From the NCBI GenBank assembly GCA_030601755.1, contig JAUWBF010000027.1, positions 1 through 39,990 of the forward strand: a stretch of 39,990 nt of DNA. Reading direction: 5' to 3'. The notes beneath the pieces are model-generated. The model was given only the letters and a program-made list of their open reading frames with translations, was not told the origin of the DNA and did not search any database. This document shows positions 1,652 through 14,081 of this stretch, piece by piece (position 1 is the stretch's first letter; every line of letters starts with the position of its first letter). Origin of the DNA: Verrucomicrobiota bacterium (GTDB taxonomy: Bacteria; Verrucomicrobiota; Verrucomicrobiia; Opitutales; Opitutaceae). Made by a program: the position numbers and the translations under genes.

Positions 1652-3343
<1,692 letters not shown>

Positions 3344-3442
3344 GGTGGTTTCGATGCGAGCGGGCGCGGGCGGCCGGGTCAAGGGACCGTTTGCCAAGGC
3401 ACCGCCAGACCTCGGCCAAACGCGCCTGCAAAACCGGCAAGT

Positions 3443-3517
3443 TTGTCACTTATTAAGTGACAATGGCCTTAAGGCCTTTTCTTCCAGCAGGATATTTGTC
3501 ACTTAATAAGTGACAAA
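3443..3517. repeat. Pair of near-identical palindromes upstream of ettA
   Basis: Two palindromes share arms: TTGTCACTTA/TAAGTGACAA around a central T (3443-3463), and TTTGTCACTTA/TAAGTGACAAA around a central A (3495-3517). Between them lies a third perfect palindrome, GGCCTTAAGGCC (3465-3476). All are seen directly in the sequence. They sit between the ettA start and the ykgJ 3' remnant. Possible roles are operators, mobile palindromic repeats or transcript-end structures; none is proven. A second pair with a different sequence but the same layout is at 35682-35778. Confidence 0.9.
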
Positions 3518-3561
3518 TGGTTCGGAGCGGGGTGCGAGCGCAGGTGGGAACGTGGGGGGGG

Positions 3562-3741
3562 TCAGGGGCGGGTGGCGTGTTCGAGGGCGGTGAGGCGGGC
3601 GTGGGCGTCGGCGGCGTCGCAACCGCACATGTCGGCCGAGGGGCGCAGGCTGGCACAGAAGGCGGGACGCTCGGGCCGGCCGAAGATCGCGCAGCGCAGG
3701 TCGGGCAGGAGTTGCACGCAGGGGATGCCCGCGGGCTTGCC
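3562..3741 (-). pseudogene. ykgJ: 3' part of host YkgJ-type cysteine-cluster gene, cut by the element
   Basis: Read on the minus strand from the att core, this codes for the C-terminal 56 residues of a YkgJ-family protein: AGIPCVQLLPDLRCAIFGRP, then PERPAFCASLRPSADMCGC, ending EHATRP and a stop at 3562. It has no start of its own. Frame and sequence continue exactly from the fragment at 13615-13734 (ending MPHGKP), so joining the two across the element restores an 84-aa protein with the family's cysteine pattern. YkgJ-type proteins are small Fe/Zn-binding proteins of unclear function. The split is the direct evidence for the integration site. Confidence 0.9.
3734..3741. other. attL core of the integrative element
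   Basis: The 8-bp GGCTTGCC is shared by the left junction (3734-3741) and the right junction (13652-13659). Left of it lies host ykgJ 3' sequence; right of it begins element DNA with the recombinase gene. Large serine recombinases typically leave only such a short identity, with strand exchange at a central dinucleotide. The exact dinucleotide cannot be fixed from one side. Confidence 0.75.
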
Positions 3742-3760
3742 ATTTGGTCCTTGGAGACCT

Positions 3761-5374
3761 ATGAAAACCTCCCTTAAAAGACTCCTTGCAGACATCATGA
3801 GCCAACCCGAGAAGACCGAAAAGCCCAAGGCCTACAGCTACCTGCGTTTCTCTACTCCCGAACAGCGGAAAGGGGATAGTGAACGGAGGCAGACCGAACT
3901 TGCCAAGCGTTACGCCGAGACTCACGGCCTAGAGCTGGATTCAGAGTTAACCTACAAGGACCTTGGGCTCTCCGGCTTTCATGGAGCCAACGTCGAGCGG
4001 GGGAGCCTTGCCGAGTTCCTTGATGCGGTCGAACGGGGCATCGTCCCGAAGGGCAGTTTTCTGCTGGTGGAGAATCTCGACCGCCTCAGTAGGAAGACTC
4101 CCCGCAAAGCCCTGCGCATCTTGGAGGACATCGTTGAGGCTGGGATTGTCGTGGTGACTCTCATGGACGGCAAACAGTTCACCCAGGCCAGCCTCGATGG
4201 CTTCGATCTGTTCCATGCGCTTCTAACAATGATTCGCGCCCACGAAGAAAGCGCAACCAAGCAACGCCGCGCAAAGGAGTCTTGGAAAGCATCATTGGAT
4301 AAAGCCTCCAAGGGAGAAGCCAGGGGGGCCTCGGCTGGGCCGGCGTGGCTCCGGCCCTCACCAGACGGCAAACGATGGGAGGCCATTCCCGAACGTGCGG
4401 ATGTGATTCGGCAAATCTACCGGCTCGCCAAGGGTGGCAAGGGAAAGGAGGCAATCGCCAAGCTCCTCAACTCTGAAGGGGTGCCCACCTTTGGCAACAG
4501 GGCCAAGCAGTGGCATGGCTCCTACATCTACCGTGTGTTGAACAACAGGGCGGTGCTAGGTGAACACACGCCCATCGAACGTGGGCTGGACCCCTCGACC
4601 GACACCAAGGTCTTAATACCGCAAAAACCGATTAAGAATTACTACCCCCGCATCGTGTCTCAGTCCCTGTGGGAAGACGTGCAGAGCATTGCCGCCACTA
4701 ATCCAAGGAGGGGCAGACACTCCCACGCTCCTGTTTCAAATATCCTAGGTGGCTTGGCGCGCTGTGCGCACTGCGGGGACTCTATGGTTCGCGTCAACAA
4801 GGGTGAATGGAAGGCCCTCGTTTGTCGGGCCGCCCGTGGGGGCGTCAAAGACGACCACGGACATCCTAAGTGCAAGTATGAGAGCGTATCCTACTCCAAG
4901 GTGGAGACCACCATCTTGGATAACCTGGAGCGACTTTGCGCCGAAGCCCCTCCTCAAGGACAGAAAACCACCAGCCTTCAAAAGCAGCTCACAGGTTTAC
5001 AGCAGGAGATAGAGGACATAACAGACGCCCTCGAAAACCTGCTTATGGCCATCGACCGCAGCAACGCCCCAGCGCCTGAGTCGATCCTCGCAAAGATCAG
5101 GCTATACGAAACTGAATTAAACGTTCTAAGAGGGCGTGAAGGCTCTGTCTTGGAGGCGCTAAAAAACACATCACAAACCCTCGTCCAGAGCCGATTGACC
5201 TCCCTGCTTGCAGAGGGGAAGAAAAAGAACCCAGACCGAACAGCGCTGAACGCCTGTCTGCGTTCCCTGCTGAACTCTGTATTCGTATCGCCCAAAAGGG
5301 GAGAGCTGGCGTTTGAGTGGAAGCATTCCGAAAATCGTTCGGACCTGCTCTTCGCCTTCCCCGCCAGGTCATAG
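3761..5374 (+). CDS. Large serine recombinase (integrase)
   Basis: A 537-aa protein. The resolvase domain opens with 'YSYLRFSTPEQRKGDSERRQ', where Ser31 is the expected nucleophile, and continues with 'LVENLDRLSRK'. A recombinase domain follows (IRQIYRLAKGGKGKEAIAKL...), then a zinc ribbon (CAHCGDSM, later Cys residues ending HPKC), a coiled coil (about residues 405-430) and a C-terminal tail. This is the full architecture of large serine recombinases, which cut attP and attB with a 2-bp overlap. The ATG at 3761 has GGAG a few bases upstream; an alternative ATG is at 3797. The start is only about 20 bp inside the attL core, so in the integrated state its upstream DNA is host sequence. It is the enzyme expected to have inserted this element. 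Confidence 0.93.
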   Translation: MKTSLKRLLADIMSQPEKTEKPKAYSYLRFSTPEQRKGDSERRQTELAKRYAETHGLELDSELTYKDLGLSGFHGANVERGSLAEFLDAVERGIVPKGSFLLVENLDRLSRKTPRKALRILEDIVEAGIVVVTLMDGKQFTQASLDGFDLFHALLTMIRAHEESATKQRRAKESWKASLDKASKGEARGASAGPAWLRPSPDGKRWEAIPERADVIRQIYRLAKGGKGKEAIAKLLNSEGVPTFGNRAKQWHGSYIYRVLNNRAVLGEHTPIERGLDPSTDTKVLIPQKPIKNYYPRIVSQSLWEDVQSIAATNPRRGRHSHAPVSNILGGLARCAHCGDSMVRVNKGEWKALVCRAARGGVKDDHGHPKCKYESVSYSKVETTILDNLERLCAEAPPQGQKTTSLQKQLTGLQQEIEDITDALENLLMAIDRSNAPAPESILAKIRLYETELNVLRGREGSVLEALKNTSQTLVQSRLTSLLAEGKKKNPDRTALNACLRSLLNSVFVSPKRGELAFEWKHSENRSDLLFAFPARS

Positions 5375-5597
5375 GCAAGCTCCGGGTGGTCCACGGGTAG
5401 GCACTGGCTACACCAACTTAGCACAGGTAAGGCCGCAAGCGCGGCTTCGGGATGGGCGAGACAGCGCCGCCACGGCTAATCTTAGGCTTTCCACTCAACA
5501 TCGCCGTGAGACGGTGACAACATAGCAAAATAACACCATAAGACACTGCAATAAAGCTACTTGACTAATAAAAATAGTGGATGGATTAGGCACCCCG

Positions 5598-6071
5598 ATG
5601 AACAAACTAAATCATATCCACACAGTCACCGTCCCCGTTGAAATTCCGCGCTACCTCTGGGATGCGCTTATCTCCCGTTACTCTGGGTTCTCAGACTGGA
5701 GGAAACAAAACCAAAGCCAGACAGACCTCGCTACAGACCTCTTTGTAGTGCCTATGCTTCATCTGTTTGCATCGGCGGTCACTGAGCTTTTGACACAAGA
5801 CCAACTAGACGAGATTAGCACGGTCTGCCCCACCTCAGGCAGGCCTTTGAAGTCGACCCACAAGGGGCGGTTCTCACGCTTCCAAAAACAGACGGCGGTT
5901 GTTTGCGTGGACACACCTCCCCTAAAACTGCGGGCAGACTCTCAGCTACTCGGGGACCTCAAACGCCTTGCTGAGGAGCGACAAAAAACCGTTGAGGACC
6001 TAATCTCGCCGTTCGTCACTACCTGCCTGCGGGACCTGCTGGAAGACGTGAAGATACGGGACGGCCTGTAA
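5598..6071 (+). CDS. Element-encoded protein of unknown function
   Basis: A 157-aa protein starting MNKLNHIHTVTVPVEIPRYL; an in-frame GTG at 5577 is an alternative start. It has no signal peptide or transmembrane segment. The middle (CPTSGRPLKSTHKGRFSRFQ) is basic, and the C-terminal third is helical (LLGDLKRLAEERQKTVEDLI) with a look of ribbon-helix-helix or tetramerisation segments, but I cannot assign a fold. It is followed 23 bp later by a strong intrinsic terminator, so it forms the end of a short plus-strand unit after the recombinase. The 223 bp between the recombinase stop and this start hold a small GC hairpin (GCCGC-AAGC-GCGGC near 5433) and an AT-rich stretch just before the gene that may contain its promoter. 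Possibly a regulator or recombination directionality factor; that is only a guess from position. Confidence 0.6.
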   Translation: MNKLNHIHTVTVPVEIPRYLWDALISRYSGFSDWRKQNQSQTDLATDLFVVPMLHLFASAVTELLTQDQLDEISTVCPTSGRPLKSTHKGRFSRFQKQTAVVCVDTPPLKLRADSQLLGDLKRLAEERQKTVEDLISPFVTTCLRDLLEDVKIRDGL

Positions 6072-6094
6072 CTCCGCCAAAGCCTACACCCCCG

Positions 6095-6124
6095 CCCCTA
6101 GGTTTGACCGCCTAGGGGTTTTTT
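6095..6124 (+). terminator. Rho-independent terminator after the 157-aa gene
   Basis: CCCCTAGG (6095-6102), an 8-nt loop, CCTAGGGG (6111-6118), then six T. A textbook intrinsic terminator on the plus strand. Confidence 0.93.
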
Positions 6125-6178
6125 GTGCCCTCATGCCGGCACCCTTGCCCCCGCCTAAAAGACTGATAGCGCGGAGGC

Positions 6179-6301
6179 ATGAAGAAAGGAGACCCCGACA
6201 AACTCAAAGGCGCTTCCCTACCTCTGTGGCTGGCAATCCTTGTCCTCTATGGCGTGCTCTACGTCATCGGTTCAACCTATGAAGCAATAACACGACGCTG
6301 A
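6179..6301 (+). CDS. 40-aa single-span membrane protein
   Basis: A short gene lying between two intrinsic terminators. It starts MKKGDPDKLKGASL, with a good ribosome binding site (GGAGG ending one base before the ATG). A single hydrophobic helix (LPLWLAILVLYGVLYVIG) and a basic tail ending ITRR complete it. Lys-rich N-terminus, one membrane span and a short C-terminus suggest an inner-membrane micro-protein. Similar small proteins in phages and satellites act as holin-like, immunity or toxin peptides, but nothing in the sequence decides this. The strong Shine-Dalgarno, unusual in this window, and the flanking terminators argue that it is a real, separately transcribed gene. Its promoter would lie in 6125-6170. 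Confidence 0.62.
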   Translation: MKKGDPDKLKGASLPLWLAILVLYGVLYVIGSTYEAITRR

Positions 6302-6323
6302 GGCATCGCCTAGGCTCTCCAAG

Positions 6324-6359
6324 GCCTCCCCAAAGGGTAACACCTAGGGGAGGCTTTTT
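6324..6359 (+). terminator. Rho-independent terminator after the 40-aa gene
   Basis: GCCTCCCC (6324-6331) pairs with GGGGAGGC (6347-6354) across a 15-nt loop, followed by five T. Confidence 0.9.
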
Positions 6360-7024
6360 CGTGTCTCCATCGGTCGACCTAGGCAGGGGAGCCACTGGGA
6401 GACAGGCCGATGAAAAAACCGATGGATAAACACGAATGAAAGCGAAGGCGGACGCCCCTCCCCTGCTCTCCGTCCCACCTCGGGCAAGCCTCTGCTGTAG
6501 ACACGCTGTAAGCGACTCACACGGGACAGGGGCGAGGCGAAGGCATCCCCCAACCCCGGACGCAGCCGCTTTGCCGAGGGCGGAAGACGGCCCAGAGTGA
6601 CACCTAAACGGCACCGATAGGCATTCCCTCAGAGGTAAAACGCATACCTCCCCGAAGTAAGGGGGCGGTCTGGGTGGCCTGTTTTTGGCCTCAGGCGAGC
6701 GGGTTGCCGTAAGGAAAACGAACTTTTTTCGCCTCGGTATGGCTAAGGGGATTCCATGCGTCCCGACAATGGCGAGAGAAACACATAAGGCGCTTTAACT
6801 CAAGCCAAAGCAAAGCCCCCTTTGCCTGCCAGACATACCCCAAATCAAAAGTTTAGCTCCCCGCCTAGGATAAACGCCTTGGCCCATAAATGCGCGCCCG
6901 TTCGCGCCCGCATATGAAGGAGGCAGGGGGCACGGGGGGAACTTAGGACAGCGATGGTATGTAATACCGGCTCGGATTTTTCCTAGAAATAGCCGCACAG
7001 GGCGACCGGCTGGAAGCAGGCAAA
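6360..7024. other. 665-bp non-coding stretch inside the element
   Basis: No convincing protein-coding frame was found on either strand in a compact element that is otherwise tightly packed. Visible structure is limited to a short palindrome GGTAT-GTA-ATACC near 6956-6968, A- and T-runs (ACTTTTTTCGCC near 6724), and purine-rich GGAGGCAGGGGGCACGGGGG near 6919. It contains no clear iterons. Candidates are a replication origin, a packaging-like signal or an untranslated RNA; the sequence alone does not choose between them. Confidence 0.5.
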
Positions 7025-7061
7025 GGGGGACTGAGGGATTGCATGGGTCCTTCAGTCCCCC
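7025..7061 (-). terminator. Hairpin terminator of the element's minus-strand operon
   Basis: GGGGGACTGA (7025-7034) pairs perfectly with TCAGTCCCCC (7052-7061). On the minus strand the hairpin comes 16 bp after the stop of the 1164-aa gene and is followed by only three T. It is a strong stem with a weak T-tract. Confidence 0.7.
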
Positions 7062-7077
7062 GCCTAACTTCTGGGTC

Positions 7078-10000
7078 TTACTGGCCGATGAGGGCCGCGA
7101 TCTGTCCGCCCCGCTCGGTCCGCTTGAGGGCGAGCTGCTGGGCTTTGACCTGGTTTACCGCGCTGCGAAGCTCGGGATATTCCCGGAGGGTCTGGGCGTA
7201 TGCGGCACGTCGATACACGCCGATGATGCGGCGGAGCTGGGACACCCTGGGACTCTCGATGCCGAGGCCCTCAGGGGCGACGCCGAGGGCTTGGTAGCCT
7301 CGGGAGTCGATGAGCTTCTCCAGGGCTTGCCGGAGGTTCTTGCCGCCCACCTTGACCTCTCCTTGGAGCTGGCTCCAGCGGTCGTAGGCGGTCTGACCTT
7401 TGGCGCTCCGGTAGTCCAGCAGGGACAGGGGTCCCTGAGCCACCGGGGGATTCTTGAAGCCGTGGTTGAGCTGGGCCAACTCGGCGAAGATGCGGTCGTC
7501 CTTGGTCCGACTCATCACGAAGGGGTTCACCGCAGCCCAGGGGGTTTGGGCGAGCATGGAGTCCACTGGCTCTCCGAGGAGGTTGCGACGCGGCTCCAGG
7601 CCTCCGGGGTTGCCGGGGAGTCGGCTGTAGATGGCGTCCTGCATCGTGCGGATTTCCTTGATGGCGTCGTCCCCGTCGAGGGCTCCTCCCACCTGATTGA
7701 TGAAGGCGGGAATGTAGGACGCGGCCTGCTTCTGAAGGAGCCGAGGGGCGAACCGGTCGGGCTGATTCAGGGCGTTCAACAACTGGGTGACACCAACGAG
7801 GTAGGAACGGTTGGTGAGATTGGCTGCCAAGGAGGAGACCAAGGCTCCCATGAGGGCCTCCTGCGGAGCGATCAGGCGGGTCTCTTGGCGCATCCCCACC
7901 TCATTCCAGTCTGCCACGATTCCCAAGAATCCCGCGAAGGGGTCGAGACGCTGGTAGGAGACATAGGTCTTCTGCCCATCCGGGCCGTCGAACACAAGGG
8001 AGTAAGGTTGCCATCCAGAGGCCAAGAGGGCGTTACGCTCCTCCAGGTTATCCGGGCCTTTGCCGGTCACCCGTCCTTCATGCCAAAGCGTGGAAGCCAT
8101 GGCGAAGATACCAAGACCCATGGCGGTGCGGCCTCGGGCCTGGGAACGAACCAGGGGGTCCGCGCTGGCGATCTCCAGGGCATGGCGGGCGTGCAGCTCA
8201 GAGAGTATCGGGAGATGCAGGTTACCGCCTCCGGGGATCGGCAGGGTGGTCAGAGCGGCGGTGCGCTGGCCGATGAACTTGAGGATGTTCGTGGGGGTGC
8301 GGACGAACGGGAGGAAAACCTGGGCGATGGGGTGCGAGGCGGTGAAGCTCTGGATGGCTTTGCCGGCCTTACCCAGCTCACGCTGGAAGGTGGCCTCGTC
8401 GGCTACGTTCTTGCCGAACACAGCGGCGGACAGGGCGGAGCTGCTTTCATCGTAGTTGTCCTCCAAATACTTCTCGATGAACTGCTGTTTCTCCAGTCCG
8501 CCGAGGCCTTTCTCCACGGCAAGGGCCTCGGCCTCTCGGGCAAGCGCGGCTTCGCTGTAGCGGCTCCCACCTTGGCGGATGGCCTCGGACATTTGGGTGT
8601 CGATGAAGTTGGCCAACTCCGCCCCGGAGAGACCCTGAAGTCGGCCCTGATGGTAGAGGTGGGCCTTGGCGGCGCCTCGGGTGTTGATCTGGCGGAAGAA
8701 CTCGTCGGTGCCGGTGAGGAACCGGGAGGGCAGTCGGGCGGCTTCACCGAAGGCGTTGAAGAAGTGCCAGAGGGAGGAGCCCTTGAGGTCGAGGGCGTCC
8801 TGGGCACCAGCCTGGAGTTCGCTGCGGAGGCCGGTGGAGACCTTGGAGGCGTCCTGGGCGAGGTAGCCTGCGGAGAGGGCCTTGCCGTTGCCGATGATGT
8901 CGGAGGTGCCCCGGCGACCGGACTCGATGATGCCTTCGCCGCTCATGAAGGCCTGGCCGGCAAACTTGAAGGCGTCCTTCACGGACTCGGCCATGTAGAC
9001 GTATTGGCGAGCGAAGGACGACGCGGCCTTGGTGTCACCAGAGGCGAGCGCACCCACGATGCCCTCCATGGGGAGGTAGAGGGTGTTGAGGGCGTTGCCG
9101 AGGGTGTTGACGATTGTGGTCTTGGGGCCGGAGAGGATGGCGTTGACCCAATACTCATTGTGGGCGCGCAAGAGGCGACCACCCCAGGTGAGTTGGTTGG
9201 AGACGAGCTTGCCTACGCCCTCAGGGGACGCGGCGGCGATCTTCTGGAGCTGGCTGGAAATGTAGCCGGTGCCGCCGAGGTCCTGGACGAGTTGCTTGGC
9301 CATGCTGACCGAGCTGATCTCGGCCTGCTTGATGTAGCGGCGGGCACGCAGGGCGCGACCCTGGGCGGTGCCGTAGCCAGACACGATGGAGATAAGCTCG
9401 GCGAGTTTCTCCTGGGCGGAGAGGGAGCGGAGCATGTTCTCCTCGGTGCCTTGGCCCTTGGCGACCAGCTCGGCGTAGTGCTTGGCTTCCTGGGCTACGG
9501 CGACCATGAGTTCGGAAGCGGCCTGAGCCTTGTAGGTGGCGTTCACGGTGTCTTCCAGTCCTCCTCGGAGGTGAGCAAACACAGCTTCCGTCGACCTGCC
9601 CGTCATGTCTTGGATGACCTGGAGGGACTTGGCTCGGGTTTCCTCCAGAGACTCGACGGCCTTGACCTTGCCGGAGGCGGTGTCGCGTTCGCGCACGAAG
9701 CGAGCACGCTCCTCAAGGAGGGCTGCGAGGTCTTCCGACGAATCAACCACGCGGCTGATTTCCTTGTCGGGGCTCTGGAAGAGGTGGCCGCTCTCGATGT
9801 CGAGTCGGGCCAGCTTCTTGATGGAGTCGGTGGCGGCTTCGCCAGCCGTATCCGAGGCACCACTACCGGCACGCTTGAGGGCGTTCTCGATGGGCTCCAC
9901 GGATACGGTGCGGGCGAGCTTGGCGGCTTCCTCCTTGGCGAGGCCGGAGAGGACGCCGGAGCGATACTTGGAATAGGCCTTGAGGCCGTGGACGAGGCCG

Positions 10001-10572
10001 TCCGCCACGGCGCCGATGCCGAGGCCTTCGAGGGCGTTCTTGAAGCGGCCCTCGATCTCCCCGTCGTCATCGTCGGCGGCGAGGTAGTCGGTGATGGGGT
10101 TGCGCAGGGCGGGGTATTCCTGGATGAGGTTGGACAGGCGTTTCTCCTGGCCGTCGAAGACGGTGAAGTCGGCGATGGCACCAGCAAGGGCGCCTTGGGC
10201 CACGGAGCCTGCCTTGCCAGCCCACCCGAGGGCGGAGCCAGCCTTGCCTGCGACTCCCAGGCCGGGGACGAAGCCGACGAGGAACTGGGAGACGCCCTCC
10301 ACGAGCTTGCCTGCGGTGGTCTCGGAGCGTCCCAGGGTAAACTCGCCTTGGTGCCAGTCGGGAAGGGCGTCGAGGGTGACGGTATCGACCAGGTTGTAGA
10401 CGCCACGGGCGGCTTGCTCAACGCCACGGAAGGGGGCCATGAGGATGTCCACGGCGGTGTTGGGGTTGGGCGTGGGGATGGAGGGGTTCTCCAGCGCCGG
10501 GGCACGCTGGGCGAGCGAGAGGTCCTGGGCTTGCGTGAGCTGGTCCTCGGGGGAGTCGTAGGTGCGGATCAT
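7078..10572 (-). CDS. 1164-aa phage virion-like protein (internal/ejection protein type)
   Basis: A very large protein starting MIRTYDSPEDQLTQAQDL. About residues 90-140 are Gly/Ala-rich and weakly hydrophobic (FLVGFVPGLGVAGKAGSALG), then long helical segments follow. Around residues 470-490 it has 'EYWVNAILSGPKTTIVNTLG', a signature I associate with very large structural or internal virion proteins of podoviruses and with polyvalent phage proteins. Later parts (SHPIAQVFLPFVRTPTNILK; DRWSQLQGEVKVGGKNLRQA) are in the same style. By analogy it would be packaged in a particle or sit at the cell envelope during DNA delivery. It is the last gene of the minus-strand operon, 109 bp after the polymerase-like gene, and ends at a strong hairpin. 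No capsid, portal or terminase accompanies it. The assignment rests on motif memory; a non-virion membrane-associated role is possible. Confidence 0.55.
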   Translation of the reverse strand: MIRTYDSPEDQLTQAQDLSLAQRAPALENPSIPTPNPNTAVDILMAPFRGVEQAARGVYNLVDTVTLDALPDWHQGEFTLGRSETTAGKLVEGVSQFLVGFVPGLGVAGKAGSALGWAGKAGSVAQGALAGAIADFTVFDGQEKRLSNLIQEYPALRNPITDYLAADDDDGEIEGRFKNALEGLGIGAVADGLVHGLKAYSKYRSGVLSGLAKEEAAKLARTVSVEPIENALKRAGSGASDTAGEAATDSIKKLARLDIESGHLFQSPDKEISRVVDSSEDLAALLEERARFVRERDTASGKVKAVESLEETRAKSLQVIQDMTGRSTEAVFAHLRGGLEDTVNATYKAQAASELMVAVAQEAKHYAELVAKGQGTEENMLRSLSAQEKLAELISIVSGYGTAQGRALRARRYIKQAEISSVSMAKQLVQDLGGTGYISSQLQKIAAASPEGVGKLVSNQLTWGGRLLRAHNEYWVNAILSGPKTTIVNTLGNALNTLYLPMEGIVGALASGDTKAASSFARQYVYMAESVKDAFKFAGQAFMSGEGIIESGRRGTSDIIGNGKALSAGYLAQDASKVSTGLRSELQAGAQDALDLKGSSLWHFFNAFGEAARLPSRFLTGTDEFFRQINTRGAAKAHLYHQGRLQGLSGAELANFIDTQMSEAIRQGGSRYSEAALAREAEALAVEKGLGGLEKQQFIEKYLEDNYDESSSALSAAVFGKNVADEATFQRELGKAGKAIQSFTASHPIAQVFLPFVRTPTNILKFIGQRTAALTTLPIPGGGNLHLPILSELHARHALEIASADPLVRSQARGRTAMGLGIFAMASTLWHEGRVTGKGPDNLEERNALLASGWQPYSLVFDGPDGQKTYVSYQRLDPFAGFLGIVADWNEVGMRQETRLIAPQEALMGALVSSLAANLTNRSYLVGVTQLLNALNQPDRFAPRLLQKQAASYIPAFINQVGGALDGDDAIKEIRTMQDAIYSRLPGNPGGLEPRRNLLGEPVDSMLAQTPWAAVNPFVMSRTKDDRIFAELAQLNHGFKNPPVAQGPLSLLDYRSAKGQTAYDRWSQLQGEVKVGGKNLRQALEKLIDSRGYQALGVAPEGLGIESPRVSQLRRIIGVYRRAAYAQTLREYPELRSAVNQVKAQQLALKRTERGGQIAALIGQ

Positions 10573-10681
10573 TTCTTGGTTCTAAAGGAGGGTTGAGGGC
10601 TATCGGTCTCGCGCCCGTCACTGGGCACGACTGGACACGAAGGGGAAACGGGGACGGCCCGTTGTAATTTGGGAGCAAGGC

Positions 10682-11980
10682 TTACGCGGCCTTGAGGCAT
10701 GGGTGCGCTCCGGTGGCGGCAAAGAACTCTTGGGACAGAATCTCCTGCACCTGCTCCCGGTGTTCCGTAGGACATAGGATGCAGTCGTGAATCGAGACAG
10801 CGGGGATTGCCGTATCCAAAGACTGGATGCGCGGAAGAACACGACCGATCACAATGTCCGCCTCGGCTTTCTGAAGCATCAGGGGGAGTCTGGCGTGGTC
10901 CTCGGCTTTGATCTCCGCAATCCGACCGGCGAGCACCGGGAACTCTTGCTGGAAGGCGGATAGCAGGGGTGAGGGAGTGGGCCTCAGCCGGTCGTTAATG
11001 ATGACCTGGACTCTCTTCTTCAGGACATCCCGCCCCTGGGCTCGTAGTTCCGCCTGTGGTTTTTCCGGCAGAAGGCTCAACAGGTGCTCATAAAACCAGC
11101 CACGGGAGGTCAACTGAAGGAGCTTCTCCCGCTCCTGGCAGTCCTCTCGGTAGAGGGTCGCCATGAGAAAGGGCTGGCAGCAGCTCACGTCGATTTCCAC
11201 CACGGGCCGTTGGTCGATCAACAGGTGCGCCCTGAGTGCCTTGGGCATGGACGTGACGTTGTGAAAGAGACGCCCCGTGTTCGGGTCTTCCCTGAGCCAC
11301 AGACAGCGGCTTTGGAGTTCGTGGTAGGAGCGGAGCCATGAGGTCCGGGCCTCCCATGTCGGGAGCGTGGGGAGGCTGGCCTGAAGGGCGGTCTCGGCGG
11401 AGCCGCTGAAGCAGAGGGCTGTCAGGCTATCCATGAGCCCACGTTTGGTGGGGCTGGTGCCGACGACCTCACGGGTCCTATCGTGGCGGTTTCGGGAGAG
11501 CGCCTTGGCCAAGCGCTGGTCCAAGCAGGGGACCATTGCCGGAGCACGGTCGCTGTAGGCCTCGGAAAGACGGTAGCCCTTGGCGTAGCCCCGGCCATGC
11601 GGAGAGGAGGCACTTGTTTGGTAGCCGGTAGGAGGGTCGATGATCCCGAGTTTGTGGAGTATCTCGGGGACTTCTGCGGCCAAACGCCAGCCGAAGAGGC
11701 GCTTCATTTCCTCGAAGGGAATCCGGGCTAGGCCCTTGTCCTTGAATTCCGCCCTTCCCTGCCCTCGCCGGCTCATCAAATCAATGAAGCACAGGAGAAA
11801 GGAGAGGCGCTTGTTGGTAGTCCAGGACCGCAGGGCGTGCGTCTCAAGCAGGGCAGCGAGGTCGAGACCTTGGGGGACCAAGAAAAATGGTGATTCATAA
11901 GGAGGCTTCGTTCCTTGGCTTTCCTCTAGGTCTTTTACTCGGCTTTCTGAAAGGGACAGGGGGGATGGGTCACCACTCAC
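10682..11980 (-). CDS. Compact family A DNA polymerase-like protein
   Basis: A 432-aa protein with an apparent Pol I-type palm/fingers core. TGRLFHNVTSMPKALR (235-250) resembles the 'TGRLSS..PNLQNIP...R' block. VVEIDVSCCQPFLMA (260-274) resembles motif A, with Asp264 as metal ligand. R317-D-V-L-K321 followed by KRVQVIIN resembles the motif B helix (R-x3-K). LMLQKAEADIVIGRVL (367-382) resembles 'iQg.aADii..am'. AVSIHDCIL (394-402) resembles motif C, with Asp399 and Cys in place of the usual Glu. No 3'-5' or 5'-3' exonuclease domain is present; the first ~200 residues are unrelated and look like a winged-helix replication-initiator region. It starts at a GTG overlapping the 64-aa gene. Likely role: replication of the element. 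Alternatives are a primase-polymerase or an inactive derivative. The match was made by eye. Confidence 0.6.
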   Translation of the reverse strand: MSGDPSPLSLSESRVKDLEESQGTKPPYESPFFLVPQGLDLAALLETHALRSWTTNKRLSFLLCFIDLMSRRGQGRAEFKDKGLARIPFEEMKRLFGWRLAAEVPEILHKLGIIDPPTGYQTSASSPHGRGYAKGYRLSEAYSDRAPAMVPCLDQRLAKALSRNRHDRTREVVGTSPTKRGLMDSLTALCFSGSAETALQASLPTLPTWEARTSWLRSYHELQSRCLWLREDPNTGRLFHNVTSMPKALRAHLLIDQRPVVEIDVSCCQPFLMATLYREDCQEREKLLQLTSRGWFYEHLLSLLPEKPQAELRAQGRDVLKKRVQVIINDRLRPTPSPLLSAFQQEFPVLAGRIAEIKAEDHARLPLMLQKAEADIVIGRVLPRIQSLDTAIPAVSIHDCILCPTEHREQVQEILSQEFFAATGAHPCLKAA

Positions 11981-12164
11981 CGGTCATCACCCACCAAGGA
12001 GACTTGCCTCGGTAGCACCTCAGGAGGCTCCAAGCCTGGGCCTCGGTCACCGCGTAGACGGTGGCCACCGAGGAGGTCCTTGGGTTCCTGAAGTTAAACC
12101 AACGGGGTCGGTTCTCTAGGTCGGCTTTGGGGGAGCTGGAGATGGCGGGAGACGGGGATGTCAT
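11970..12164 (-). CDS. 64-aa element protein coupled to the HTH gene
   Basis: Starts MTSPSPAISSSPKADLENRP and ends SPWWVMTGEW. Its ATG overlaps the stop of the HTH gene (ATGA), and its last codons overlap the GTG start of the polymerase-like gene by 11 bp, a layout typical of translational coupling. The C-terminal half (YAVTEAQAWSLLRCYRGKSP) is compact, with several aromatic residues and one Cys. I recognise no family. Its place between a DNA-binding protein and the polymerase-like protein suggests an accessory replication or regulatory role, but this is inference from position only. Confidence 0.5.
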   Translation of the reverse strand: MTSPSPAISSSPKADLENRPRWFNFRNPRTSSVATVYAVTEAQAWSLLRCYRGKSPWWVMTGEW

Positions 12165-12400
12165 CGCACCAGCATCCGATCTTGGAACGCCTCAAGGTCC
12201 TGAAGGCGGTAGCTGACCACACGACCAACACGGACTTGGGGGATGAGCTTTTGTCGGATGAGTTCCTGGAACTTGTTACGGCAAACCCGAAGATAGGCTC
12301 GGGCCTCCAAGGTGGTCATGACCTTGGGGGGATTGCGGCGGATGGCTTCAGCGGCTTCATGAGAAAGCGTCTGGATGGGTGAAGGGGCGGTAGGTTTCAT
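12161..12400 (-). CDS. Helix-turn-helix DNA-binding protein (excisionase/MerR-like)
   Basis: A 79-aa protein. Residues ~30-75 read MTTLEARAYLRVCRNKFQEL, then a short wing and SYRLQDLEAFQDRMLV. This is the winged HTH_17 layout: helix, 'ayLrv.r..f..li....ip..rvGr...yr..dle.f'. Such small proteins act as excisionases (recombination directionality factors) or as local regulators in phages and integrative elements. The start at 12400 is chosen because residues encoded further upstream look non-conserved; an in-frame ATG at 12574 is possible. It is the first gene of the operon with the 64-aa, polymerase-like and 1164-aa genes, and could set excision and replication together. Confidence 0.78.
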   Translation of the reverse strand: MKPTAPSPIQTLSHEAAEAIRRNPPKVMTTLEARAYLRVCRNKFQELIRQKLIPQVRVGRVVSYRLQDLEAFQDRMLVR

Positions 12401-12615
12401 TGGTGGTTGAGGGTCTTGGGTAGGTCGCCAACGGGAGGCCTCAGCGGATCGAATCGGGGCACGAGACAGGGATGCCTCATCCAGAGGTAGGCCCCGGTGC
12501 GAGGAGTAGAACCCAGAGCGGGACACCGCGTTGGCATATATGGGGTTGAATTGAACCCTCCCGGAGCCGAACAAGGGCCGGGACTAAACCGTGCTGGGCA
12601 TATGTGCAGGGGAAA
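12401..12615 (-). promoter_or_regulatory. Probable promoter/operator region of the element's operon
   Basis: A 215-bp gap between the antirepressor stop and the HTH gene. It contains an imperfect operator-like palindrome GGGTTGAATTGAACCC (12543-12558, one mismatched pair) next to CATATATG (12534-12541), a plausible -10 region read on the minus strand. No transcription start can be fixed by eye. Confidence 0.4.
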
Positions 12616-12987
12616 TTACCGAACCCTGACCCAAAGGCCCATGACATAGGCGCCGTCCTTGCGGATGGCCGGGAGGACCTCACGGGTCACCCAGTCTTGA
12701 AAGGCGCGGGCCTCGGGCTTGTTGGAGCGCATGACCAGCTTGTAGAGGCCGGACTCGGAGATGATGGTGACGTTGGGGTTGCCTGCCCGCCTGTGGATAC
12801 CCTGAGTCAAATTCAGGGTATTCTTCTCGTCAGGCTTTAGATTCCGAAGGTAGCGGCCAGAGGCCTGCTTTTCAACGGGGAAGCTAAGGACCTTACAGAC
12901 ATCGGCGGCGACGAACCAAGGCTGGTCCTTGATTTGGACCACGCGGACGGGGTGGGTGTCTTTGAAGTGGAAGAGGGTGGTGTTCAT
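12616..12987 (-). CDS. Phage antirepressor with Bro-N domain
   Basis: A 123-aa protein. 'MNTTLFHFKDTHPVRVVQIK', then PWFVAADVCKVLSF, a central LRNLKPDEKNTLNL, and 'TIISESGLYKLVMRSNKPEA' followed by ARAFQDWVTREVLPAIRKDG form a complete Bro-N domain, as found in phage antirepressors and baculovirus BRO proteins. The usual C-terminal KilA-C/ANT domain is absent. Such proteins inactivate a repressor or bind DNA to trigger induction. The ATG at 12987 is the family start; an upstream in-frame start at 13029 adds an unrelated leader. It is transcribed away from the 69-aa membrane gene, with 68 bp between the two starts, and towards the HTH-polymerase operon. No CI-like repressor was seen in the element. 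Confidence 0.88.
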   Translation of the reverse strand: MNTTLFHFKDTHPVRVVQIKDQPWFVAADVCKVLSFPVEKQASGRYLRNLKPDEKNTLNLTQGIHRRAGNPNVTIISESGLYKLVMRSNKPEARAFQDWVTREVLPAIRKDGAYVMGLWVRVR

Positions 12988-13055
12988 GGGAGGCGAACAC
13001 CCACGGCCTCGGTCGGCGCTTGCCCCCACATCAAAAGGCGCTACCCAACAACCAC

Positions 13056-13265
13056 ATGAGCAAAGACAATGACGACCGTAGAGCCCGCTTCATCGCTAAG
13101 TGTTTCATGGTCCTCCTCATGGGGGGAGCAGGGGTGCTGTTTCTACGCTCCGGGATCAATGCGCTAGAGCACGAACGAGGCTTCGGAGCGGTGCTCGCCC
13201 TTGTCCTCGGCGGGGGCTTCGGAATCGGCTTCTTAGTGACTGCTTGGAAAATATCTGGCGAATAG
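13056..13265 (+). CDS. 69-aa membrane protein with two transmembrane helices
   Basis: Starts MSKDNDDRRARFIAKCFMVL. A charged, basic N-terminus precedes two hydrophobic segments (about residues 13-35, FIAKCFMVLLMGGAGVLFL; and 43-63, GFGAVLALVLGGGFGIGFLV) with a short polar turn. The topology resembles small phage holins or superinfection-exclusion proteins, but no family is recognised. It is divergent from the antirepressor and lies next to the replacement ykgJ gene, on the opposite strand to both. Confidence 0.55.
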   Translation: MSKDNDDRRARFIAKCFMVLLMGGAGVLFLRSGINALEHERGFGAVLALVLGGGFGIGFLVTAWKISGE

Positions 13266-13313
13266 ACTACCGAGGTAGGAACCGCGCCGAGACGAATCCG
13301 AGGTCCGAGCCTT

Positions 13314-13586
13314 TCATGAGGCGGGGCGGGTCATGTTCTCCAGTCCATCCAAGTAGGCCAAGGCATCTTCCCTACACGATCCGCACATGGTCTGTGTTGG
13401 TCTCAGGCTAACGCAGACTGCTGGCCGCTCCGGTTTCCCGAAAATCGCACAGCGCATGTCCGGGAGAAGTTGGACACAAGGAACGCCAGCAGGTTTACCC
13501 CTCTCCATGCCCGGAATCGGGGAAGAGATGGACGGAGCAATACAGCAAGCCCCACAGCCTTCCCGACAGCTCAACACGTTCTCCAT
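13314..13586 (-). CDS. ykgJ: Intact YkgJ-family cysteine-cluster protein carried by the element
   Basis: A complete 90-aa protein, [20 protein letters not shown] onward, with the YkgJ cysteines (CxxxCGACC near the start, then PCVQLLPDMRC, a later C and CGSC) expected to bind Fe or Zn. Aligned without gaps to the 84-aa protein rebuilt from the two host fragments, about 59 of 82 positions are identical. It lies inside the element, 66 bp from the attR core. Its start is 28 bp downstream of the stop that ends the truncated host N-terminal frame, on the same strand. It is therefore placed to be transcribed from the host ykgJ promoter and to substitute for the disrupted gene. The molecular function of the family is unknown; related proteins are called putative iron- or zinc-chelating proteins. 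Confidence 0.9.
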   Translation of the reverse strand: MENVLSCREGCGACCIAPSISSPIPGMERGKPAGVPCVQLLPDMRCAIFGKPERPAVCVSLRPTQTMCGSCREDALAYLDGLENMTRPAS

Positions 13587-13614
13587 TCCCCACTCTCCCT
13601 CTCAAGTCCCCACC

Positions 13615-13734
13615 TCACAACGGGGATTTTTGGGGTCTTGACGGACCGAACGGCTTGCCGTGCGGCATGCCGGGGATGGGCGAGGTGATCGAGGGCGCGA
13701 TGCAACACGCGCCGCAATGCGGGCGGCAGTCCAT
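13615..13734 (-). pseudogene. ykgJ: 5' part of host ykgJ, ending in element sequence
   Basis: The frame starts [20 protein letters not shown], continues PGMPHGKP to the att core (13652-13659), then reads 11 unrelated residues encoded by the element ([11 protein letters not shown]) to a stop at 13615. It keeps the first cysteine cluster but lacks the second half of the family. The missing part is at 3562-3741. The host promoter should lie upstream, in 13735-13800. Confidence 0.9.
13652..13659. other. attR core of the integrative element
   Basis: GGCTTGCC, identical to the attL core at 3734-3741. To its right is the 5' part of host ykgJ; to its left is element DNA. On the minus strand it encodes GKP in the conserved GKPAG(I/V)PC segment of YkgJ, so the recombinase targets a conserved coding motif. 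Confidence 0.75.
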
Positions 13735-14081
13735 GCGGGCGACGTTGCAGACAGGGGACGATGCGTTGCGAGGGTGAAATACGACCCGGTCGACGCCAAA
13801 AGGCAGGCGGACCATACATGGAGGACGGGCACTCTTGCCCGTCCGGTTTGGGGCGTAGCCGGGAAGCAGACACGCTTTCCCGGCGGGGACGCGGGCGGTT
13901 GCCGTCAGCCTGACGCCGGTTGGAAACCGGCGCTCCTTGGGGAGGGCGGCGGCGGGACCGCCGTCGAACCGGTTGCGGACAACCGGTTCCACCCGGCTGA
14001 TGCGGGACGGCTCGCAGACGAGGGGGCACGCCGGGGGGGCCGACAACGGGGCGGGCGGGAGTGCCCGCCCTCCGGGCTGGT
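13735..14081. repeat. Intergenic cluster of hairpins between ykgJ and the DUF748 gene
   Basis: No gene is seen here. It has GGACGGGCA-CTCT-TGCCCGTCC (13823-13844), CCGGGAAG with CTTTCCCGG (13859-13883), CGCCGGTT with AACCGGCG (13914-13932), two AACCGGTT copies near 13970-13990, and GGGCGGG-AGTG-CCCGCCC (14053-14070). The last follows the stop of the DUF748 gene on the minus strand and may end its transcript. The rest resembles dispersed GC-rich palindromic repeats. The ykgJ promoter must be at the left part of this region. Confidence 0.7.

Follow-up and report, generated by a model that had tools for sequence, protein, structure and literature searches.

A divergent family A polymerase-like protein, predicted to lack an exonuclease and to carry a winged-helix-like domain, in an integrated island of a Verrucomicrobiota bacterium

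The closest described system to the protein reported here is divPolA2. The passages devoted to it by Yutin et al. (2024; PMC11348598) present a phage protein that has an active palm but lacks both an exonuclease and a recognisable thumb. According to the same passages, similarity is undetectable for its N-terminal domain and its gene is additional to another polymerase; both an RNA polymerase and a repair function are raised as options. A 2026 census of bacterial DNA polymerases recognises PolA1-3 and PolA1-like enzymes, with no such short group in its section 15, and part of its text reports Pol I to be missing from a significant fraction of Verrucomicrobia (PMC12926913). In the literature searched (subscription journals being mostly outside the scope), the group was undescribed beyond divPolA2 and had not been placed in integrated islands.

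Here we analysed 39,990 nucleotides of a Verrucomicrobiota bacterium of the family Opitutaceae (contig JAUWBF010000027.1 of assembly GCA_030601755.1), the whole of this stretch being termed the window. An initial annotation had singled out a 432-aa ORF with Pol I-like motifs in order, only ~200 residues of polymerase and no exonuclease domain. This ORF was recovered exactly at 10682-11980, on the minus strand; frame 1 of the plus strand across the same interval is not open and contains many stops. The features of the gene are:

10682..11980, minus strand: family A polymerase-like protein, 432 aa, with a putative N-terminal winged-helix-like domain; GTG start
10685..11296, minus strand: predicted palm/fingers core, residues 229-432, with GR, motif A D264, R317-x3-K321, F347-P348, Q370 and H398-D399
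11531..11893, minus strand: winged-helix-like domain, residues 30-150, with moderate support from secondary structure, a separate model and structure searches

The motif A Asp, the O-helix R-x3-K and the motif C HD were each found in the window protein, and the full order of motifs was as first described (TGRLFHN at 235-241, EIDVS at 262-266, R317-x3-K321, LQKAEADIV at 369-377 and SIHD at 396-399). The polymerase part, residues 229-432, likewise had the proposed length, and no exonuclease family was matched in Pfam, PHROGs or NCBIfam. Conservation was assessed in an alignment of 42 rows (A5), made up of the query plus 41 relatives that share 16-30% identity with it. These 41 were used out of 62 extracted relatives, the short L030 and others (some near-identical) being omitted without a strict rule. 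Invariant positions (42/42) were L108, L186, G236, R237, R250, D264, Y297, K321, P348, E373, H398 and D399, and Q370 was kept in 41/42. As these residues are identical across the 42 rows, the named motifs are not due to chance. Among the four residues that the annotation had put forward as diagnostic, Asp264, Lys321 and Asp399 were thus identical throughout, whereas the position of Arg317 held Arg in 21 rows, Lys in 20 and Asp in one. dN/dS lay between 0.038 and 0.289 where computable (relative pairs 60-97% identical), with many pairs saturated at synonymous sites.

The window copy departed from its relatives within the O-helix, where it has Gln325 (K+4) and Asn329 (K+8), each absent from every other row of A5. 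The alignment has Tyr/Phe in 36/42 rows at the first position and Phe/Tyr in 41/42 at the second, aromatics that we take to correspond to F762 and Y766 of Pol I; the relatives from G029 and G079, for instance, have Phe at K+8. Because aromatics are replaced, the O-helix of this copy may be impaired or altered. The relatives keep them, and therefore the claim at the level of the fold stands, while the activity of the window copy is less sure.

Sequence databases returned little. The window protein had no match in Pfam up to E 1, and so none to PF00476 (DNA_pol_A), nor did ten relatives match DNA_pol_A up to E 10. NCBIfam gave no match and a PDB sequence search nothing relevant; when PDB sequences were compared with a 9-row profile, the match to DNA polymerase I was insignificant by itself (E 0.87). 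PHROGs gave a single weak match, to phrog_4756, 'unknown function' (E 9e-5).

Structure prediction was more informative. AlphaFold2 supplied with A5 gave a model with pLDDT 87 and pTM 0.84, in which residues 1-28 and 121-130 were poorly defined. All 50 matches listed by Foldseek against the PDB were family A DNA polymerases (best E 1.5e-4), as were all 50 rows listed by VIA-align on the Foldseek candidates (Z 14.1-12.2 over 238-255 residues), so that the model agrees with the Pol I palm and fingers invoked at the outset. TM-scores of the whole model against Pol I were low, at 0.28-0.41 of the query. The top BFVD matches were short phage proteins, among them one annotated as 'Putative DNA polymerase I' (TM 0.70 relative to the query); a DNA polymerase from a Rheinheimera Barba phage (TM 0.30) ranked lower, as did a Zamilon replication protein, presumably TV-Pol. 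Comparison of profiles with a set of five family A proteins, one of them T7 DNA polymerase, reached a pairwise E of 1.2e-4 (probability 55); the O-helix R/K, FP, Gln and HD fell in register, and motif A lay outside the aligned part; an unrelated window protein used as a control gave nothing. Together with the conserved catalytic residues, the model places the protein in family A by its predicted palm/fingers fold, and suggests that little or nothing of a classical thumb is present.

The N-terminal half had been proposed to form a separate DNA-binding domain. Modelled separately, residues 29-160 reached a pLDDT of 78.5, and their best VIA rows were mostly winged helices, including CAP/CRP (Z 6.6 and 6.3) and ORC2 (Z 6.3). 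Three initiator entries, 4pql, 4pt7 and 5kbj, which we take to be RepA_N proteins, aligned over 93-94 residues with Z of 6.3, 6.1 and 6.0. Ribosomal proteins also reached Z 6.0, no row attained 8 and the best Foldseek E was 0.36. We therefore predict with moderate confidence that residues 30-150 are a winged helix, and this domain likely stands in the place of the thumb and grips DNA. As for the original proposal, a separate, winged-helix-like domain (Z ~6) is what the searches support, and its binding to DNA is something that we infer.

The polymerase gene is present in one copy in its own genome, and a whole-genome search found relatives in 3/94 other genomes of the family or order. Across the order relatives occurred in 10/372 genomes (E 1e-5 or better) and across the phylum in 15/387 (E 1e-3 or better), the own genome being counted in both. 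Two loci came from a genome collection, where they are titled Opitutaceae and Opitutae; further relatives were found in three huge-phage records, a Hymenobacter plasmid and a Sphingomonas plasmid, the last adjoining an integrase and an HTH gene. Plasmid searches returned few relatives. Two scans of IMG/VR yielded 6 and 66 loci, of which some share a contig. When the window polymerase alone was compared with viral contigs, none of 25 stretches retrieved was a relative, and the viral relatives were recovered once sub-alignments served as the query.

The family aligned at full length with an alignment of divPolA2 type (A6, AUR84708 included) in hhalign (pairwise E 3.6e-19, 334 columns). In a 40-row tree that holds three phage rows of divPolA2 type, the window family and the divPolA2 type were sister clades (100/99 each side), with long branches as a caveat. 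The window protein fell outside the divPolA2 clade and grouped with two relatives from its own bacterial family (98/87). One relative, L022, matched phrog_4756 strongly (E 8e-53) and matches 287 phage records (Vibrio 144, Rheinheimera 115); since relatives such as this match it so strongly, phrog_4756 probably represents the same group as divPolA2, judging by sequence. The description of the protein as unrecognised is consequently right only in part, because the divPolA2 sister group was published in 2024 (PMC11348598), although the window clade itself is separate.

In the window, the polymerase gene lies within an island whose features, other than the gene itself, are:

3562..3744, minus strand: interrupted host gene, C-terminal part, matching residues 29-89 of the element-borne CxxCxxCC copy
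3734..3741, no strand: left copy of the 8-bp GGCTTGCC common to both element ends, likely the attachment core
3761..5374, plus strand: large serine recombinase (integrase; PF00239, PF07508; phrog_95, E 2e-77)
5577..6071, plus strand: 164-aa ORF with no family match
7078..10572, minus strand: internal virion protein D-like protein, 1164 aa (phrog_6651, E 2e-66), ~110 bp downstream of the polymerase gene
12161..12574, minus strand: HTH_17/excisionase-like protein
12616..13029, minus strand: Bro-N anti-repressor-like protein
13056..13265, plus strand: small 69-aa ORF inside the element, also listed with an earlier TTG; outside the family scan
13314..13586, minus strand: intact, element-borne replacement copy of the CxxCxxCC gene (PF03692)
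13624..13734, minus strand: interrupted host gene, N-terminal part, matching residues 5-41 of the element-borne copy
13652..13659, no strand: right copy of the 8-bp GGCTTGCC, 9,918 bp from the left copy, start to start

This island of ~9.9 kb split a conserved host gene and brought a replacement copy with it, since GGCTTGCC is found at both ends, the split gene lies alongside, an intact copy is carried inside and the CxxCxxCC gene occurs in 28/57 genomes searched (own genome included). The highest identity of the element-borne copy, 80%, was with a homologue from a different genome of this family. For the serine recombinase the listed frame opens at 3572, and the likely ATG is at 3761. The gene set comprises an integrase, an excisionase-like gene, an anti-repressor and one virion-type gene. 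Among the six island ORFs scanned, the polymerase was the sole replication-like gene recognised and no capsid, portal or terminase was matched. The earlier suggestion of residence in a small mobile element is borne out by the island, its integrase and the split host gene. A repeat search of the element found no iterons or origin-like arrays; a 14-bp unit in 2.0 copies, spanning the polymerase start, was not counted as an iteron. No sigma-70 promoters were found in 3500-13800 (1.7 expected), and Rfam had no match in the window. A tRNA-Ala called by ARAGORN at 13847-13940, without Rfam support, was treated as spurious, and a phmmer match of the serine recombinase frame at 13357-13638 was an artefact, antisense of the CxxCxxCC gene.

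Two further observations concern the genes around the polymerase. The virion protein D-like gene (7078-10572) has relatives in 66 phage records of the phage collection, and a scan of viral contigs found none. A copy with 52% identity (L146, L147, L148; G045) occurs in a second apparent integrated element from this bacterial family, which also has genes for a tyrosine integrase, a Bro-N protein and an excisionase-like protein and in which no polymerase was matched; islands with this virion protein are possibly satellite-like, bringing their own ejection protein. Outside the element, nearly identical 22-nt palindromes (TTGTCACTT..AAGTGACAA) at 3442-3463 and 3496-3517, upstream of an EttA-like gene (1652-3397, minus strand), have the look of operators.

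In bacteria the wider group accompanies integrases, both in prophages and in integrated islands of small size. An integrase lay within 10 kb of the polymerase in 17/22 bacterial genomes (15 tyrosine; 2 serine, in the window and G576), the 22 being all genomes with a polymerase match from the three genome searches combined. The number expected by chance for tyrosine integrases was 1.07/22, which rests on Pfam counts and is to be set against the 11/22 tyrosine cases confirmed by Pfam. The integrases of G320 and G103 are counted on the strength of a custom integrase model; those of G021 and G733, counted on the same model, gave no Pfam match at E 0.01. When each of the 13 seed integrases (12 genomes plus Sphingomonas) was left out in turn, the model still found it at E 8e-17 or better. 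No integrase was within reach in 5/22 genomes (G692, G727, G550, G264 and G274); contig ends shortened the flanks in several genomes. The weak polymerase matches of G175 (with integrase) and G274 (without) were not reproduced by an ORF search, and their exclusion gives 16/20. A terminase gene was present at two loci too, L131 (with a portal) and L134. At E 0.01, Pfam recognised neither a helicase nor a primase nor a Rep among ten neighbour proteins from six loci. At L112 (G079), a 1401-aa protein (7574-11779) with only a sub-threshold AAA match is encoded directly before the polymerase, with a tyrosine integrase in the region.

In large phages, the family member is an extra polymerase. Another replicase over its family cut-off was carried by 21/29 phage records, a chosen subset of those behind the loci that may include fragments. 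PolB was found in 20 (19 over the cut-off; weak in G462) and PolIII alpha in two, the same two having DNA_pol_A, while 7/29, contigs of 28-76 kb, had no other polymerase. A role as sole replicase of large phages was rejected on these counts. The label 'plasmid Rep' was also dropped, the Hymenobacter plasmid having its own annotated replication initiation protein and plasmid relatives being few. Across the 39 viral loci of A5, the next ORF was common to 31 and an upstream ORF (<=450 aa) to 29, and representatives of both had no Pfam match at E 0.01. At L099 and L100 (LR756511 and IMG/VR 3300036766_002288), the family member is followed by a separate canonical PolA-palm gene of 429-430 aa, their open frames overlapping at L100; this arrangement is a possible two-polymerase pair. 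In the host family, canonical DNA_pol_A was found in 0/13 genomes (own genome, G000, included) versus 10/14 control genomes.

Taken together, we give a probability of roughly 55% to the reading that this is a divergent, exonuclease-less family A nucleotidyl polymerase, with an N-terminal winged-helix-like domain, that extends 3' ends for the element. The palm, together with the Arg/Lys of the O-helix and the HD motif, argues for metal-dependent nucleotidyl transfer, the residue equivalences to Pol I being our assumption. Synthesis for the element's own replication or repair is favoured because the wider group follows integrases and no canonical Pol I was found in the 13 host-family genomes. 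The polymerase would act, presumably with dNTPs, on the element after its excision or on a newly arriving copy, the winged helix would supply affinity for the template or origin, and the setting would be a host family in whose 13 sampled genomes no Pol I was found. The protein is most likely an active, non-proofreading polymerase serving mobile elements. Points against such synthesis are the Gln at the steric-gate place, the absence from the window copy of the two O-helix aromatics and the lack of iterons.

The annotation had gone further and suggested an initiator-polymerase, which would be a possible role. In a reading that we consider less likely than not, the protein is a one-polypeptide replication module, in which an origin-recognising winged helix is joined to a minimal family A polymerase that both starts and extends synthesis. 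Such a module would serve small integrated islands and prophages, perhaps favoured in hosts without Pol I. The cousins that lie near integrases hint that small elements may have a little-known means of replicating themselves.

An accessory repair or translesion polymerase of phages and elements, unconnected with the start of replication, is an unlikely alternative to the 3'-end-extending enzyme of the element that we prefer. It would fit an extra enzyme in large phages that has no proofreading domain, and hosts without Pol I could profit from it; repair is also among the divPolA2 options in the relevant passages of Yutin et al. (PMC11348598). In the small island, however, the polymerase is the only replication-like gene recognised, and the alignment of its N-terminal domain extends across the two clades, pointing to a specific site or structure in DNA.

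Slightly less likely, yet a live rival, is a family A-derived RNA or primer-making polymerase, which would furnish the element with transcripts or with primers of RNA or mixed composition and not copy its DNA. At D+5, which we assume to be the place of the dNTP steric gate (Glu in Pol I), A5 has Gln in 41/42 rows and His in 1/42; this Gln, the HD-Ser form of motif C (36/42) and an Asp shortly before GR (40/42) could be read, on our assumption, as signs of the RNA polymerase type. Gln370, a Pol I-type residue, is nonetheless kept in 41/42, every row listed by VIA-align and Foldseek (50 each) was a DNA polymerase, and the family profile did not match T7 RNA polymerase, a weak comparison with one sequence. 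An RNA polymerase was raised for divPolA2 in the corresponding passages of Yutin et al. (PMC11348598). Finally, that the window copy is decaying or inactive and retained for DNA binding alone is improbable, as Asn329 and Gln325, found in no other row, are set against a full open frame, intact catalytic acids, O-helix Arg and Lys and motif C, and a well-folded AlphaFold2 model.

These data show that short family A polymerases of a scarcely described group occur beyond phages, in integrated bacterial elements, and link the group to integrases, and they give an N-terminal domain left unplaced in its first description a testable winged-helix idea. An initiator-polymerase, if real, would account for the copying of small islands in which no replication gene is known, and would stand alongside primase-polymerase and Rep-helicase initiators as a further solution; a protein that makes primers or RNA would be a new branch among single-subunit polymerases. 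Minimal polymerases that lack proofreading might find practical applications as well.

In comparison to canonical family A enzymes (Pol I, T7 DNA polymerase; PF00476), the window protein shares the predicted palm/fingers fold and the ordered catalytic motifs. It differs in having no PF00476 match and no exonuclease domain found, an apparently reduced thumb, Gln at D+5 and an extra winged-helix-like domain. TV-Pol of virophages and polinton-like viruses is likewise a family A polymerase of small mobile elements, but it is larger (778 aa), belongs to eukaryotic hosts and was only a weak Foldseek match (E 1.4e-3). Plasmid replication initiators (4pql, 4pt7, 5kbj) have a winged-helix domain that aligns with the window protein (Z 6.0-6.3), whereas the chains matched are short domains without a polymerase, and their Z values are below 8 and tied with other winged helices. 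The greatest likeness is to divPolA2 of barbaviruses and of Vibrio and Aeromonas phages, which is also ~430 aa, with a family A palm and its catalytic acids, no exonuclease and an N-terminal globular domain, and in phages is an extra polymerase, as are members of the window family. The two differ in motif A (EIDxxNSQP in the window family versus ELDFxALH) and at D+5 (Gln versus His in 8/9 and Glu in 1/9 divPolA2 rows). The N-terminal domain, for which the divPolA2 passages of Yutin et al. (PMC11348598) report no detectable similarity, is predicted here to be a winged helix, and unlike phage divPolA2, the window protein sits in a small integrated island.
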